A stretch of DNA of 37,789 nucleotides from the NCBI GenBank assembly GCA_018645725.1, contig JABGWD010000212.1:1-37789 (forward strand), in the 5' to 3' direction. Shown here one piece after another: positions 8,229 to 13,942 of the stretch. Made by a program: the position numbers and the translations under genes. Source of the stretch: Opitutia bacterium (GTDB lineage: Bacteria; Verrucomicrobiota; Verrucomicrobiia; Opitutales; Seribacteraceae). How positions within the stretch are numbered: the stretch's first letter is position 1; each line of letters opens with the position of its first letter. Under the pieces are notes generated by a model. The model had not been told where the DNA came from. It saw nothing but the letters and a program-made list of their open reading frames with translations, and searched no databases.

Positions 8229-9089
8229 ATGAATCCCCCTGATCGGTCTTCAACGCAACGTCTTTCCGGTTCCCCGCAGAGGGACGTCGCTCCCTTGGTC
8301 GACCCCGGGGAACTCCGGTCTTGGTTGCTTTACGAGGACGACTCGATCATCGTATTCAACAAACCGGGATGGTTGGTTTGCCATCCATCGAAAAAGGGTC
8401 CCTGGTCGAGTCTTGTCGGCGCGGTCCGGGAATCTTGTCAATTGGATCAAGTTTACCTGGTTGGCCGGCTTGACCGTGAAACGAGTGGCTTGATTCTTTT
8501 GGGAAAGAACAAGGCTGCCGGCAGGTTTTGGCAAAAGTCTCTGGAGCAACGAAAGGTCAGAAGAAGTTACTGGGCCATTCTAACGGGCGAACTAAGTGAA
8601 GAGACGACGGTGGCGGGCTATTTGGGAAAAGATCCCGATAGCCCTGTTTTCGTCAAGCAAAGGGTCGTTGGGAGTACGAACAAGTCGAAGCGTGCGGAAA
8701 CGAGTTTTTTTCCTCTTTTTTCAAAAAACGGTTTCACCCTTTGTTCGGTTGTTACGAAAACCGGCCGCAAACATCAAATCCGTGTCCATGCCCAGTCGAT
8801 GGGCTTTCCTCTGGTTGGCGAAAAACTATATGGTTTGGATGAAGAATATTACCTCGAGTTTTGTCGCAATGGATGGCAGGAGGAATGGTTGCCCGTGTTG
8901 GGCATGAAAAGACAGGGCCTGCATGCCCGAACCTTTGGTTTCGTGGACGAGGGACCGGATTTTGTTGCTCCTCTCCCAGGGGATTTTCTTGCGTTCCTGA
9001 CCGATCGTCTGGGTCTTGAATCCAACTGTGAGGATGCGCTTGATGAAAAGGCCCGAATTTGGACGGAGGCTCAATTTCGCGGAGAATAG
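8229..9089 (+). CDS. RluA-family RNA pseudouridine synthase
   Basis: A 286-residue enzyme that isomerises uridine to pseudouridine in RNA. The catalytic motif is GRLDRETSG (79-87) with Asp82; the substrate-binding element RKHQIRVHAQ lies near residue 178, and the N-terminal motif FNKPGWLVCHPS (43-54) is also present. There is no S4 RNA-binding domain, as in RluA, RluC-short or TruC-type enzymes. The target (16S, 23S or tRNA) cannot be told from sequence alone. It is transcribed divergently from hpf and stops 45 bases before the start of the acidic-protein gene at 9134. The window has a second paralogue at 24733. Confidence 0.93.
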   Translation: MNPPDRSSTQRLSGSPQRDVAPLVDPGELRSWLLYEDDSIIVFNKPGWLVCHPSKKGPWSSLVGAVRESCQLDQVYLVGRLDRETSGLILLGKNKAAGRFWQKSLEQRKVRRSYWAILTGELSEETTVAGYLGKDPDSPVFVKQRVVGSTNKSKRAETSFFPLFSKNGFTLCSVVTKTGRKHQIRVHAQSMGFPLVGEKLYGLDEEYYLEFCRNGWQEEWLPVLGMKRQGLHARTFGFVDEGPDFVAPLPGDFLAFLTDRLGLESNCEDALDEKARIWTEAQFRGE

Positions 9090-9133
9090 GGTTGTGCCGG
9101 TTCACTGAAACGGGTAATCGAGTTAAGAACGAG

Positions 9134-9709
9134 ATGAATCAGCTTTCCGCCAGTCCATTGGATGCCCTAAAGGGTGGTTTTCGCAAGGCATGCGTCAAGC
9201 GGCTGATTGGTGACGAGTCAGGTGCGATCGAAGTGTTGAAGAACGAGATTCCGGGGTTGGTCGTGTCATGGGCCAAGTCGACTTCCTTGTCCGCTTCCGA
9301 AAAAAAAGCCAAGCTCAAGGAGCTTTTTGACGATGAATCGACCCGGTCGGAGGAATTGGCCGTGGCCTTTGATTTGTTTGCCGGTAGGTTTGAAGCCCGG
9401 GTGGCGTCTATTGTCAGAAAAGAGTTGAAGGACGCATCGAGTCGGATGGATGGCGTGGTCCGGAAACTTGAGGAATCGTTGGCCCGGTCTCCCGTTCCCG
9501 ACGAAGAACCTTCTTTGGATGGAACTGATGGCGAGGGTGACGAGAGTCCGGTCGCAGAGGTGGATGAGCAGCAAGCCGAAGAAGAATTGGAACTTGATTC
9601 GGATACCGAAGATATGGATGCGGAATTGGACCCTCCGATGGGCATCGGTTTAAGGTTTGATGAAATCGAAGAAATGATAGATGAAGTCTTGAGTGTCGAC
9701 GATTCATAA
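9134..9709 (+). CDS. Acidic protein of unknown function beside an actin-like gene
   Basis: A 191-residue protein I do not recognise. I chose the ATG at 9134; the frame is open to 9059, but that part overlaps the preceding gene. The first 115 residues look helical and mixed in charge (ALKGGFRKACVKRLIG; KKAKLKELFDDE; coiled-coil-like VVRKLEESLARS). Residues about 115-165 are a low-complexity acidic linker rich in Glu, Asp and Ser. The last 25 residues form a short amphipathic helix (GLRFDEIEEMIDEVL). There is no signal peptide or membrane helix. The next gene, 82 bases on in the same direction, encodes a MamK-like actin, so this could be its partner; that link is positional only. Confidence 0.7.
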   Translation: MNQLSASPLDALKGGFRKACVKRLIGDESGAIEVLKNEIPGLVVSWAKSTSLSASEKKAKLKELFDDESTRSEELAVAFDLFAGRFEARVASIVRKELKDASSRMDGVVRKLEESLARSPVPDEEPSLDGTDGEGDESPVAEVDEQQAEEELELDSDTEDMDAELDPPMGIGLRFDEIEEMIDEVLSVDDS

Positions 9710-9791
9710 AAATGTGTTTGCCAAGTACAGGTCATCGTTCCAAAAGATGAGTAGCTTTGTGCATTATGCATAAAATAATTCTTTTACCCAC

Positions 9792-10928
9792 ATGACTGAA
9801 AACATTGACGAACACGATCAGGAGGCTTCCGAGCCGTCACCCGCTTCTTCCACGCCTACGGGAGACAAAAAGAGGAAAATGTACGTAGGCTTGGACTTGG
9901 GTACGTTGCAGTCGTGTTTCGTAACCAAGTTGACCAAGCCGGGCTCGGAGGAGGTTCCCGGGGAACTTGTGCCGACTGTGGTCGGTTACCCTGAGGACGG
10001 AATCCTTTCCGGCATATTGCCCGGAAACTCCTCCATGCTGCATGGGGATGAGGCGATCTCAAACGAATTGCATCTGCGGTTGGTCAATCCCTTGAGCGAT
10101 GGCGTGGTGTGCGATATTGATGCCGCCAGATCCTTTCTGACTTATCTGCGTGACAAAATAGATCCCGAGAGAAAAAGGGAGGTTCTTTGCGTGGTAGGTA
10201 TCCCGGCCGTCGCCGATGGCGAAGCCAAGGAAAACTTGAAGAAGGCTGCCAAAGGAGCCTTTGATGGGATTCTTTTCATACCCGAACCTTTTCTTGCTGC
10301 CCTCGGCATGAGGGACGAGGAAAGATTGGGTGACCCTGACTACCAGGACCCCGTCAGCAATTCGCTCTTCATCGATATCGGGGCAGGCACAACCGATTTT
10401 TGCATCGTGCAGGGTTACTTTCCCAAGCCCGAGGATTTGATGAGCATCCCTTTTGCCGGGAATGAGGTGGACGTGATCCTGGACAAGGCGATACGGGAAG
10501 CGTATCCGGAGGTCGACGTGCCCTTGTCCATGATTCGAAGCTACAAGGAGGCCTATTCCTATGCCGGGGAAAGCGAGTCCGGAGCGCGAGTCAAGGTGCC
10601 GGTTGGCGGGAAGCCCCGCAAAATCGAAATAGGCAAGCAAGTGGGCTCGGCCTGCAACGAACTTGTTCAGGAGATTTTCGAGTCCGTGACAAAGGTTATA
10701 GCGATGGCCTCTCCGCTCTCCGTCTTCTCTCTTTTGCAAAACATTGTGTTAACCGGTGGAGGCAGTCGCATCAGGAACATAGACCAAGAATTGCAACGTC
10801 TCCTGCTTGATGACGGTTACGAAGATCCCGAAGTACGCATTTCTTCACGCGAGGTTAAGCCTTTTGTCGCGATTGGAGCGATGAAGGTTGCCAAGGCCGC
10901 CCGGGAAGATCAGTGGGTCAGGTTATAG
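9792..10928 (+). CDS. MamK-like bacterial actin ATPase
   Basis: A 378-residue protein of the actin/Hsp70 ATPase fold. A disordered 29-residue N-terminus precedes phosphate-1 loop YVGLDLGT (31-38), VVGYPEDG (63-70), VVGIPA (134-139), catalytic Glu165 in IPEPFLAALG (163-172), phosphate-2 DIGAGTTDFC (195-204), and adenosine loop LQNIVLTGGGSRIRNI (315-330). The order and wording of these segments (VVGYP-D, NPLSDGV, IDIGAGTTD-C, P-PED, LQNIV--GGGSRIR) agree with what I know of MamK, the filament that lines up magnetosomes, better than with MreB, FtsA, ParM or DnaK. No other magnetosome gene is visible. It may form a filament with another cargo. The family call is firm; the MamK-like subgroup is inference from memory, not a search. 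Confidence 0.8.
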   Translation: MTENIDEHDQEASEPSPASSTPTGDKKRKMYVGLDLGTLQSCFVTKLTKPGSEEVPGELVPTVVGYPEDGILSGILPGNSSMLHGDEAISNELHLRLVNPLSDGVVCDIDAARSFLTYLRDKIDPERKREVLCVVGIPAVADGEAKENLKKAAKGAFDGILFIPEPFLAALGMRDEERLGDPDYQDPVSNSLFIDIGAGTTDFCIVQGYFPKPEDLMSIPFAGNEVDVILDKAIREAYPEVDVPLSMIRSYKEAYSYAGESESGARVKVPVGGKPRKIEIGKQVGSACNELVQEIFESVTKVIAMASPLSVFSLLQNIVLTGGGSRIRNIDQELQRLLLDDGYEDPEVRISSREVKPFVAIGAMKVAKAAREDQWVRL

Positions 10929-10943
10929 GGTTGCGTTTCCCTT

Positions 10944-11888
10944 TCACAAGATTCCGTGAAGAGTTTGCGAAATTCTCTCTACGGTGTCGTTTAATTCGTG
11001 CTCTATGGTTTCCATTTCCTGAGAGCTTTTGTCTTCGAAAAGAATTTTCCACCCATCCAGTTCGCCGTGTGATTTTGCGATTGGGGAAGATTGCCTGACC
11101 AATCCCGCAACCCCCATTCCCGAAGTAATGAAGTCCGCCACCTGGATGGCGCCGGCAAGTTTTTGATGGCTTTCCGAACGTAATGGTTCGTGATGCCAGT
11201 GCACTGCATCCACTATGTCATCGGAGATATGGTGGTTCCAAAGGTAGTAGGCTCCGATTTTTGCGTGATCCCAACCCACTGTTGTTCTTTCCATGCCAAG
11301 AAAGTCTTTTGCGTGGCGATGTGTCTTTTGGTACACTTTTTCGAAAAGCTCGGGAAAGGTGATGGCCAAGATCAGTTTCCCCAAGTTGTGCAGGAGACCG
11401 GCTACGTAATCCGATTCATCCTCGAATTCCTCGTCCGTTAGCGAAAGAATTTCTCTGGTCAGGATTGCGCATCCGATACTGTGCCGCCAAAAGTCAGTCC
11501 AAGGGAAGGTTTGGGAACCTTTTCCCAGTTCCATGATATCCTCGATAATCGGGGTGGCGGAGATCAGTTCCCTGATTCGGTTCAACCCAAGGAATATGGA
11601 TGCCTCCTCAACACCGGAAATGCGTTTTTCGTCCTTGCTTCCGAAGAATATGGAATTGACCAAATCGAGGACGCGCGTGGTCAGGGATGGATCAAGGCGG
11701 ATGACTTCGGCAATTTGCGCAACAAAGCTGACATCCGAATCAAGAAGGTCGTTCAGGGTTTCGTTGATACTCTTCAGTGAGGCCAATTTCGGGCACTGAT
11801 TGATTCTTTCAATCAGCAAGAAATCAGAAAGAGGACTGTTTTGGTCCGGGGGAAGGCGACGATCAGTCCCTGAATCGCCCTTTTCCAT
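10944..11888 (-). CDS. HDOD domain protein
   Basis: A 314-residue protein with one HDOD domain across roughly residues 20-215: the LxSxxxTLxDLLxSD entry, VIRLDPSLTTRVLDLVNS (62-79), the FLGLNRIRELI helix (99-109) and HNLGKLILA (167-175), where the catalytic Asp of an HD pair is replaced by Asn. HDOD proteins usually have no hydrolase activity and act in signalling. The last 90 residues (HWHHEPLR onward) are a helical extension with the pattern AGAIQVADFI typical of the family. It is convergent with the actin gene, 15 bases apart, and lies 19 bases after the small gene at 11908, which suggests co-transcription with asd and that gene. Confidence 0.88.
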   Translation of the reverse strand: MEKGDSGTDRRLPPDQNSPLSDFLLIERINQCPKLASLKSINETLNDLLDSDVSFVAQIAEVIRLDPSLTTRVLDLVNSIFFGSKDEKRISGVEEASIFLGLNRIRELISATPIIEDIMELGKGSQTFPWTDFWRHSIGCAILTREILSLTDEEFEDESDYVAGLLHNLGKLILAITFPELFEKVYQKTHRHAKDFLGMERTTVGWDHAKIGAYYLWNHHISDDIVDAVHWHHEPLRSESHQKLAGAIQVADFITSGMGVAGLVRQSSPIAKSHGELDGWKILFEDKSSQEMETIEHELNDTVERISQTLHGIL

Positions 11889-11907: not shown

Positions 11908-12330
11908 TTAGGCATCGAAAAGAACGGCATTGGGCCGAAATTCGCTGAGGTTGCTCTTTTCTTCCAAGCAAAGGTCGAAGTAATTGATAGCCTGCTTGCA
12001 TGCCTCCGATTCCTTCGGTAACACAAGAGTTTCCCCCGAGGATGAGAGGAATTGAACGGAACCGTCCGCTCTTTTCTCGAGGTAAATTTGGGAGTTTTCG
12101 TTTCTCTCCACAAAGGATGAGACTTGGGGGTTCTCCAACAGGGCCGAGCGTGCCGACTTGCTGTCGGAAAAGGGCTTCGGAGCGTCTTGTCCGGATGCTT
12201 TCCCTAACTCGGCGGGGAAGGAAATTCGCCCTTGAGATTCAACTGCCTTTTTCGAAGTAAGTTGGTTGGATATTCCGTCCAGTAAGTTTTTGCCTGCCGA
12301 TACGAGTCCTCCTGCTATGATTGGATCCAT
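11908..12330 (-). CDS. Small protein of unknown function
   Basis: A 140-residue product from the ATG at 12330. The frame is open back to 12441, but that would overlap the 3' end of asd by 76 bases, and the added residues are basic and atypical. The N-terminus MDPIIAGGLVSAGKNLLDGI is a small Gly-rich amphipathic segment; the rest is polar, with a beta-like stretch (SQIYLEKRADGSVQFLSSSGETLVL) and a helical end (EACKQAINYFDLCLEEKS). No family is recognised and no signal peptide is seen. It lies between asd and the HDOD gene on the same strand. Confidence 0.6.
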   Translation of the reverse strand: MDPIIAGGLVSAGKNLLDGISNQLTSKKAVESQGRISFPAELGKASGQDAPKPFSDSKSARSALLENPQVSSFVERNENSQIYLEKRADGSVQFLSSSGETLVLPKESEACKQAINYFDLCLEEKSNLSEFRPNAVLFDA

Positions 12331-12365
12331 GCATAACTTGTAGCATTTCCTTTGCCAAAAAAACG

Positions 12366-13397
12366 CTACATGAACCTGAGGCATTTGCGTTCGACGAGAA
12401 CTTCCGCGATTTGCAATGCGTTCAGAGCCGCGCCTTTCCACAATTGGTCACCGACTACCCAAATGGCCAATCCGTTTTTCAATGCGTGATCGACCCGGAT
12501 CCGGCCGACTCCACAAGCTTCCTTCTCGGTATAGTCGATGGGCATGGGATACCTTTTGGCATTCGGCAGATCCCAAAGCTCAACCCCGGGGGAACTCTCC
12601 AATGCATCTCTTGCGTCAGGGACGTTGACGGTTGATTCGAACTCCGCATTGATGGAGATGGAGTGCGCCCTGTAAACGGGAACGCGTACGCAAGTACAGG
12701 AAATTTCCAAAGAGGGGAGATTGAGAATCTTTCTGCTCTCGTTTCTCATTTTCAATTCTTCCTTCGTGTAACCGTCTTCCCGGAAGTCATCGATGTGAGG
12801 TATCAAGTTGTAGGCGATGGGGTGAGGGAAAATCGAGTCGCCTTTGGGGTCTGCCGTTTCTTCTCCGAGCGCAGCTCTTGTTTGTTGGTCCAATTCCTCT
12901 ACTCCGGCCGCGCCGGCGCCTGATACCGCCTGATAAGTGGATGCGATGAATCTCTTTAGCCCGAACCGTTTGTGCAGGGGGTTTAGTCCCATCAAGGCAA
13001 CGGCTGTGGAGCAATTCGGGTTCGCGATGATTCCACGGTGTTTTTCGATTTCGTCTCCATTGATCTCAGGGATGATCAAAGGTACGTCGGCATCCATGCG
13101 GAAGGCGGAACTATTGTCGATGACCACGCACCCTTGGCGGCGGGCAACCTCGGCAAATTGAACGGAGTTTTGCGAGCCGGCGCTGAAAATCGCAATATCC
13201 AGGCCCTTGAATGAATCGGGTGTTGTTTCTCGGACGACTTCCAAGTTTCCGCATGCCTGGATTTCTCTTCCTGCCGATTTTACGGAGGCAAGGAGGCGGG
13301 CTTCTGCAATGGGGAATTCTCTTTGTTCGAGTAAGCGAATAATTTCTTGGCCAACGGCACCCGTTGCCCCTACGATTCCTATACGATATTTTTTCAA
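12366..13397 (-). CDS. asd: Aspartate-semialdehyde dehydrogenase
   Basis: Makes aspartate semialdehyde from aspartyl phosphate with NADPH, the branch point to lysine/diaminopimelate, threonine and methionine. Visible are the nucleotide loop RIGIVGATGAVGQE, VVIDNSSAFRMD, the catalytic Cys in NPNCSTA (Cys129 from the start used here), and QAVSGAGAAG. I set the start at the TTG at 13397 because the family begins right at the KKYRIGIVGATG strand and the 343 residues obtained match its usual size. The only upstream in-frame ATG (13481) adds 28 residues of unmatched sequence and would overlap the divergent L,D-transpeptidase gene further. Start uncertain; function secure. Confidence 0.93.
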   Translation of the reverse strand: MKKYRIGIVGATGAVGQEIIRLLEQREFPIAEARLLASVKSAGREIQACGNLEVVRETTPDSFKGLDIAIFSAGSQNSVQFAEVARRQGCVVIDNSSAFRMDADVPLIIPEINGDEIEKHRGIIANPNCSTAVALMGLNPLHKRFGLKRFIASTYQAVSGAGAAGVEELDQQTRAALGEETADPKGDSIFPHPIAYNLIPHIDDFREDGYTKEELKMRNESRKILNLPSLEISCTCVRVPVYRAHSISINAEFESTVNVPDARDALESSPGVELWDLPNAKRYPMPIDYTEKEACGVGRIRVDHALKNGLAIWVVGDQLWKGAALNALQIAEVLVERKCLRFM

Positions 13398-13942
13398 TGG
13401 ACTTAGATATTTTGTATTCCGAGTATTTGGGAGTGGTGAATTCCTTGAGGCTAATGCCGACGGATCACGTTCTGATTGCATCCCTCCGTCAGCAGAAGAT
13501 AAATCATTTTCTACATGGGAAAAGCGTTAAAGATTATATTATGTCAAGTTCTAAGCGAAAACCATCCTGCGTAGAGGGCTCCCTCGGCACCCCTTCGGGG
13601 CTCCATTGCGTGTGTCGGAAAATAGGGGAGGGCGAGAAACTGGGCACTGTCTTCGAGGGCAGGGTTTCCATTGGGGCGACCTACTTGGAGTGTGCTGAAG
13701 AGAAACGAGAAAAGAACTTGATCACCACGAGAATTCTGCGACTCAGAGGCTTGCAGGAGGGCGTTAACTTGGGTGGGGAAGTCGATACTTACGATCGGTA
13801 CGTATACGTCCATGGCACGAACCACGAAGAAAGGCTGGGTACGCCTGCGAGTTCAGGTTGTCTTCAAATGAGCAACGAAGAAATTTTGGAACTTTTTGAC
13901 CTTTTGCCCGAGGGGTCGCACCTTTACGTTACCTTTCCCTGA
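13397..13942 (+). CDS. L,D-transpeptidase (YkuD domain)
   Basis: A 181-residue YkuD-domain protein that would cross-link peptidoglycan through L,D bonds, attach proteins to it, or act in a related way. The domain starts near residue 25 with HVLIASLRQQKINHF, the usual first strand, and continues to GTPSGLH (64-70). The catalytic motif is HGT (139-141) with Cys155 in TPASSGCLQM (149-158); the usual Arg after Cys-Ile is replaced by Leu-Gln. There is no clear signal peptide, which is odd for an enzyme acting in the periplasm. The start is uncertain: ATG 13397, ATG 13364 or ATG 13451 all keep the domain whole. The 13397 ATG shares one base with the TTG of divergent asd. Confidence 0.85.
   Translation: MDLDILYSEYLGVVNSLRLMPTDHVLIASLRQQKINHFLHGKSVKDYIMSSSKRKPSCVEGSLGTPSGLHCVCRKIGEGEKLGTVFEGRVSIGATYLECAEEKREKNLITTRILRLRGLQEGVNLGGEVDTYDRYVYVHGTNHEERLGTPASSGCLQMSNEEILELFDLLPEGSHLYVTFP

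Follow-up and report, generated by a model that had tools for sequence, protein, structure and literature searches.

How does an actin resembling MamK, the filament protein of magnetosomes, come to be encoded where no other magnetosome genes are apparent? The question was raised by an earlier note on the window (the whole stretch of 37,789 nucleotides analysed here), which had proposed a MamK-type filament positioning something other than magnetosomes, or an early branch of that actin family. The open reading frame in question is present at 9792..10928 on the + strand, where it starts with ATG and encodes 378 aa; the segments that had been likened to MamK, namely VVGYPED, NPLSDGV, IDIGAGTTD, PKPED and LQNIVLTGGGSRIR, are literally found in its translation and do align with MamK (5jyg; 149 bits, E 1.9e-42). 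The neighbours named at the time are each supported by Pfam: an RluA-type pseudouridine synthase (8229-9089, +), an HDOD protein (10944-11888, -) and a semialdehyde dehydrogenase, asd (12366-13481, -). Between HDOD and asd, by position, lies a 177-aa ORF (11908-12441, -) that matches nothing in Pfam, NCBIfam or PADLOC at E 1. Another ORF, located between RluA and the actin, is absent from the earlier note. A sigma-70-type scan of 8900-11000 returned no promoter-like site, and a single scan of viral_contigs, reaching close relatives only, found no viral relatives of the window protein. A defence role for the region, suggested by a single weak PADLOC match (12.1 bits, E 0.014), was rejected.

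The puzzle of a MamK-like actin without magnetosome genes has been largely answered by the description of BeeR (Bergeron et al., PNAS 2025). This actin of Verrucomicrobiota polymerises with ATP, has MamK as its nearest relative, carries a disordered N-terminus and builds a three-stranded tube; it occurs in non-magnetotactic members of the phylum, and its function is given as unknown (PMC11929497). The main text of that paper mentions no gene neighbouring beeR, and among the papers listed in searches of the open-licence literature there was no further one on BeeR. In Pfam the top match of the window actin is MreB_Mbl (76.7 bits), followed by Actin and Salactin; among NCBIfam profiles it scores 511.2 bits against BeeR (NF053558), ahead of MamK (225), MreB (61), FtsA (33), HscA (23) and DnaK (10), and MamK is thus closer than MreB, FtsA or Hsp70, as the earlier note had judged. 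The score falls 19 bits short of the curated cut-off of 530, a value reached in just 32 of the order's 74 BeeR genomes and straddled by the window's own family. Along the same line, the closest solved structure is the BeeR of Opitutus terrae (8r2n, 374 bits by phmmer), MamK 5jyg coming next with the 149 bits quoted above, and the window actin is 48% identical, across the tblastn match, to the BeeR of locus L033, an ORF of 386 residues, the same as chain 8r2n. Locus L033 is taken as that of O. terrae because the residue letters printed for the published filament fit it at 10 of 12 positions.

An IQ-TREE phylogeny was built from 68 hand-chosen rows: the window protein with 27 of the order's 71 other BeeR ORFs, five further BeeR and 27 MamK-like rows from 80 loci (80 of 155 kept), seven of 20 MreB and one FtsA, row L161 being trimmed to its last 360 residues. 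One side (support 96/97, 33 rows) holds BeeR and includes three Planctomycetota rows as well as the window and L033; the other (97/94) unites MamK with the MamK-like rows, and the two sides join at 81/84, apart from MreB. This deep join is the weakest point of the tree, in which long branches lead to FtsA and MreB, meeting each other, and to L203 and L179 among the MamK-like rows. In the tree, drawn without DnaK, the window protein groups with neither MreB nor FtsA. Incidentally, in the window genome (G000) the DnaK profile matches two pieces, on C127 and C254, which overlap at profile positions 85-198 and may reflect an assembly break or a second copy.

Of the earlier proposal, the kinship to MamK stands, while the placement does not, the family being the sister BeeR, at 511 bits and in a separate clade. 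The idea that the filament positions something other than magnetosomes may hold, and would fit the partner gene described below. One could still suppose a true MamK-type filament, or a MamK kept after the loss of magnetosomes, considering that the window actin is 36% identical to the MamK fragment in alignment A1, that motifs are in common, and that MamK-like actins are present in several phyla; this seems hardly credible, for BeeR and the MamK-like rows are separate supported sides of the tree, the 225 bits are far below the MamK cut-off of 400, and the magnetochrome domain PF18509 gives 0 matches in the window genome (93% complete, 470 contigs) against 11, 8, 8 and 5 in the four MamK-bearing control genomes (two Magnetospirillum-type, one Magnetococcales, one Nitrospirae). 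The search for mam genes covered this one domain, and that it was not found agrees with the earlier note. Membership in MamK (NF040964; PDB 5JYG, 5LJV) was rejected on the same grounds; MamK is the nearest other family and has the nucleotide-binding motifs in common, but the window protein sits in its own clade. By its sequence, the window actin belongs to BeeR, the sister family of MamK, and though divergent it is unexceptional within that recently described family.

The first phosphate loop of the window BeeR, GLDLGT, is found at residue 33, so that 32 residues precede it, and an additional unstructured N-terminal extension of 30-50 residues has been described for BeeR (PMC11929497). When starts are taken uncurated, 21-115 residues lie ahead of this loop in 72 BeeR ORFs versus 7-74 in 37 MamK ORFs (13-17 in 21 of the 37), and the surplus of BeeR over MamK would be nearer 15-20 residues.

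A sample of the phylum Verrucomicrobiota yielded BeeR at more than 500 bits in 11 of 240 genomes, the window's counted, all of them of the window's order, the other matches listed reaching at most 85.4 bits and being taken as MreB. Within that order BeeR is found at E 1e-60 or better in 74 of 372 genomes. Among 392 Planctomycetota genomes, sampled around one previously known to carry BeeR, 13 have it at 371-418 bits, below which there is a gap down to 227 bits; all 13 loci are closer in score to the window than to MamK, while the opposite is true of the next 17. The claim in print that BeeR is 'conserved among the Verrucomicrobiota phylum' accordingly seems to reach too far, since BeeR in the phylum sample is confined to one order, and BeeR also occurs outside that phylum, in Planctomycetota.

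Does the window BeeR share the published filament? It probably polymerises with ATP, judging from its O. terrae kin and from the retained nucleotide-binding motifs. Of the 12 cross-strand residues printed for O. terrae, E153 alone is identical, three are conservatively replaced (R157K, I277V, L284I) and the remainder are different residues; the window protein also has a shorter C-terminus than that of O. terrae. The numbering of N380 and L385 in print may be off by one, in which case the last Leu of the window protein could take the position of the buried Leu. Most contact residues are said to be conserved, and positions 153 and 246 to contact each other across strands (PMC11929497). The former claim fails over the 72 BeeR ORFs (L069 and L125 yielded none for this comparison), among which R242 is kept in 17, N246 in 16 and Q310 in four; as to the latter, both positions are glutamate in 20 of the 72, the window's included. 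As the contact residues differ across this wider set, the published strand arrangement need not apply to the window filament. The window protein resembles O. terrae BeeR (8R2N) in family, as the HMM ranking, the PDB search and the tree agree, and perhaps in its N-terminal extension, and differs from it in lying below the curated cut-off and in the cross-strand residues; it is filed as BeeR on its sequence, with no claim to the 8R2N-type three-stranded tube. Given the altered interface residues, filament architecture might differ from member to member of the BeeR family.

Bacterial actin-like filaments are often understood via their adaptors, such as ParR and MamJ. A candidate for such a role lies directly upstream of beeR in the window, at 9134..9709 (+), where a gene of no known family encodes 191 aa and ends 82 bases before the beeR ATG; its start is taken as the ATG at 9134 because relatives start at the same place (SPLEALKGGFRRACV). 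Flanking sequence was read for each of the order's 74 BeeR loci. An ORF on the same strand, bearing a C-terminal motif (see below), ends just upstream of beeR in 65 of the 74 by script and, with L122, whose frame is broken by a run of N, in 66 of the 69 readable loci. The partner is missing upstream of beeR from the readable loci L063, L121 and L123; the five unreadable flanks are those of L094, L116, L119 and L125, where contigs end, and of L124, behind a run of N. In three genomes with an unreadable beeR flank (G412, G408, G483) the partner is found near the end of another contig. In G249, beeR and partner lie on separate contigs, each away from a contig end, and are both retained. When 11 loci were compared gene by gene, no gene besides the partner was kept throughout, the wider context varying by lineage; two small ORFs further upstream, which presumably encode ribosomal proteins L21 and L27, are common to four of the 11, and other genes to some close relatives.

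As far as the open-licence literature was searched, neither this gene nor its tail motif has been described previously. The window partner has no Pfam or NCBIfam match, and the 34 members of alignment A2 (34 of the 65 partners; A3 and A4 hold 21 and 17 sequences) gave scattered single-member matches alone in these two collections, the best at E 0.001; a profile search of PDB sequences returned one designed TPR protein at E 0.8. According to AlphaFold2, the window partner (mean pLDDT 79) comprises an N-terminal domain of three predicted helices (residues 8-24, 28-49 and 54-118; 9155..9487, +), with block means of 91-98 over residues 11-120; an acidic, probably disordered linker (9488..9649, +), with pLDDT below 50 at residues 127-138 and 140-170; and a C-terminal helix at residues 175-190 of 191, which holds the motif LRFDEIEEMIDEVLSV (9650..9697, +), a predicted amphipathic helix proposed here as the BeeR-binding element. 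The L033 partner, from a distant group, is predicted to have the same layout (mean pLDDT 82). For neither model did Foldseek return a PDB match at E 0.001; hits to the MIT domain and to other three-helix structures had E above 1.

I sorted the 65 partners into groups A, B and C (32, 19 and 14 members), the N-terminal domains of which match one another by hhalign at E 4.8e-13, 8.7e-10 and 1.5e-5 (probability 97.9, 96.5 and 79.5%). At a threshold of 1e-3, profile A finds 14/14 of C and 3/19 of B, profile B 26/32 of A and 12/14 of C, and profile C 31/32 of A and 5/19 of B; broken L122 pieces excepted, no other ORF of the loci falls below 1e-3 against the group profiles. The motif has the rough consensus [LVI][RK][FLI][DG][ED][IV][EA]x[MFL][IL][DE]x[LMV][LQ]. 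In an iterated matrix, with identical windows excluded, all 65 partners score at least 10.1 bits, the best of 2177 other ORFs (L122 ORFs and those below 80 aa being left out of the controls) reaching 6.1; the 65 loci having been chosen partly by loose three-letter pieces of the motif, this unanimity is in part one of selection, and the N-terminal homology, together with the genome search below, is the more independent evidence for the partner. The 13-residue helix core FDEIEEMIDEVLS has a hydrophobic moment of 0.60, as high as which are 0.26% of shuffles. Group C (Pelagicoccus and kin) has the motif about 30 residues from the end, with a similar second stretch behind it, perhaps a tandem binding site; SLDDIVQGMNDA and the like were noted in L069, L071, L072, L076, L079, L080 and kin.

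Searched against whole genomes, the partner profile matches 70 of the 372 genomes of the order, 65 of which carry BeeR; the window partner is found at E 4e-52, being itself part of alignment A2. Five more BeeR genomes (G088, G119, G143, G350, G469) have a divergent adjacent partner, four of these at E 1.4e-13 to 0.02, that of G088 showing no match even at E 10 and being assigned by position and motif. Overall, the partner accompanies 70 of the 74 BeeR genomes versus 5 of the 298 without a BeeR match at 1e-60, counts that are of non-independent events as genomes share ancestry. BeeR without partner is seen in G509 (one contig) and G250, both with readable flanks, and in G252 and G343, whose flanks are unreadable. 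As for partners without BeeR, the contig ends inside the partner gene in G304; in G523 (locus L238, C62, 4354-4998) an intact partner with motif precedes a 214-aa beeR ORF missing its middle; and the match of G445, where BeeR was not found, carries four stop codons. Two genomes of one genus, G331 and G342, have the partner and no BeeR, giving only weak matches that are taken as MreB, and their partners end without the motif (best windows -24.2 and -14.1 bits). Elsewhere the motif is at times weak: the unlinked partner of G249 has by eye a motif-like end (IHFDDLESILNEALKR) that scores -4.5 bits, and the UBA1319 partner has a low score of 0.1. The absence of the motif in G331 and G342 and the unlinked retention in G249, few as these cases are, are the best hints that partner and BeeR are functionally linked via the tail. 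The partner is a small, fast-changing protein which usually accompanies BeeR.

Traces of the same pairing extend to Planctomycetota. In three loci the ORF upstream of BeeR has, by eye, a similar terminal motif, and among the 13 BeeR loci, these included, the motif passes 8 bits in three; two further loci resemble it at -0.6 and -1.4, levels met by 17 and 23 of the 2177 controls. No motif-bearing ORF was found within 400 bases upstream of BeeR in the remaining 8 of 13. In two of three BeeR genomes, G579 and G577, the partner profile has its best match, a weak one (E 9e-4 and 2.7e-3), in the ORF that directly precedes BeeR, and a strong match is found in G581 (E 1.6e-27), while the whole genomes of G578 and G580 gave none; in the latter, locus L176 holds a BeeR without such a partner directly upstream.

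What, then, might the partner do? I regard it as fairly probable that the BeeR filament and the upstream-encoded protein make up an actin-plus-adaptor module, with the tail helix docking on BeeR. The C-terminal amphipathic helix of the partner would bind BeeR, the likeliest site being the hydrophobic groove flanked by subdomains IA and IIA, as occupied by ParR and arcadin-2 in their own systems; its N-terminal domain may dimerise, or hold a cargo or a membrane site; and the whole protein could serve as an adaptor or end-binder linking filaments to cargo, or as a regulator of polymerisation. The data show the family membership, the conserved pairing, the motif and its absence from two BeeR-less genomes of a single genus; partner and BeeR were modelled as single chains, and the physical binding, the groove and the cargo are what I infer. 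By its layout and position the partner may act as ParR or arcadin-2 do. According to PMC5173319, the last 17 residues of arcadin-2 sit in the hydrophobic groove of crenactin, between subdomains IA and IIA, and suffice to depolymerise it, and ParR, as cited there, binds in the groove of ParM. The likeness to crenactin-arcadin-2 and ParM-ParR would consist of an actin-like ATPase bound by another protein through a short stretch; the difference is that the present partner matches no Pfam, NCBIfam or PDB sequence entry consistently. It is likened to them by its presumed working and not by membership.

The crenactin system is also the model for a different reading, in which the partner, like arcadin-2, would depolymerise BeeR or sequester its monomers instead of serving as a cargo adaptor. 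The layout is similar, a small protein terminating in its tail helix, and the arcadin-2 tail acts on its own (PMC5173319); yet the N-terminal domain is kept across the groups, of which a pure sequesterer would not obviously be in need, and in group C the position of the motif, well before the end and followed by a second stretch, appears less like a simple cap. I deem this reading possible though clearly the less probable one, an adaptor being favoured because the N-terminal domain is kept. It may also be asked whether the upstream gene is just a neighbour held by synteny and functionally unrelated to BeeR, as gene pairs may persist without interaction, and as the two small upstream ORFs, and further genes in some loci, are likewise shared; that the pair stays while the wider context differs by lineage, that G249 keeps both genes though unlinked, and that the BeeR-less G331 and G342 keep a partner but without its C-terminal motif, make this improbable.

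To return to the actin-plus-adaptor module, it might extend beyond the order: PVC bacteria, from Opitutales into Planctomycetota, could possess a dedicated two-gene module made of BeeR and a fast-evolving adaptor, whose C-terminal helix would lie in the actin groove and whose N-terminal domain would engage an as yet undescribed cargo, the filament geometry varying by lineage and the three-stranded tube not being universal. For this broader reading the case for and the case against appear evenly matched. A conserved partner with a short motif provides a first handle on the function of BeeR, and makes that function testable.

A wider set of actins came to light in Planctomycetota, where the BeeR profile also has matches at 1e-40 or better, and at no more than 227 bits, in 127 of the 392 genomes. 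For the 17 low-scoring loci compared (L265-L281), the MamK score exceeds the BeeR score, and L164-L166 and L177 were also noted. Likewise, L179 (2920-4008) encodes a MamK-like actin in a MAG titled Methanosarcinaceae archaeon, an archaeal placement that could reflect a binning error; the next ORF encodes 602 aa and appears, by eye, coiled-coil-like.
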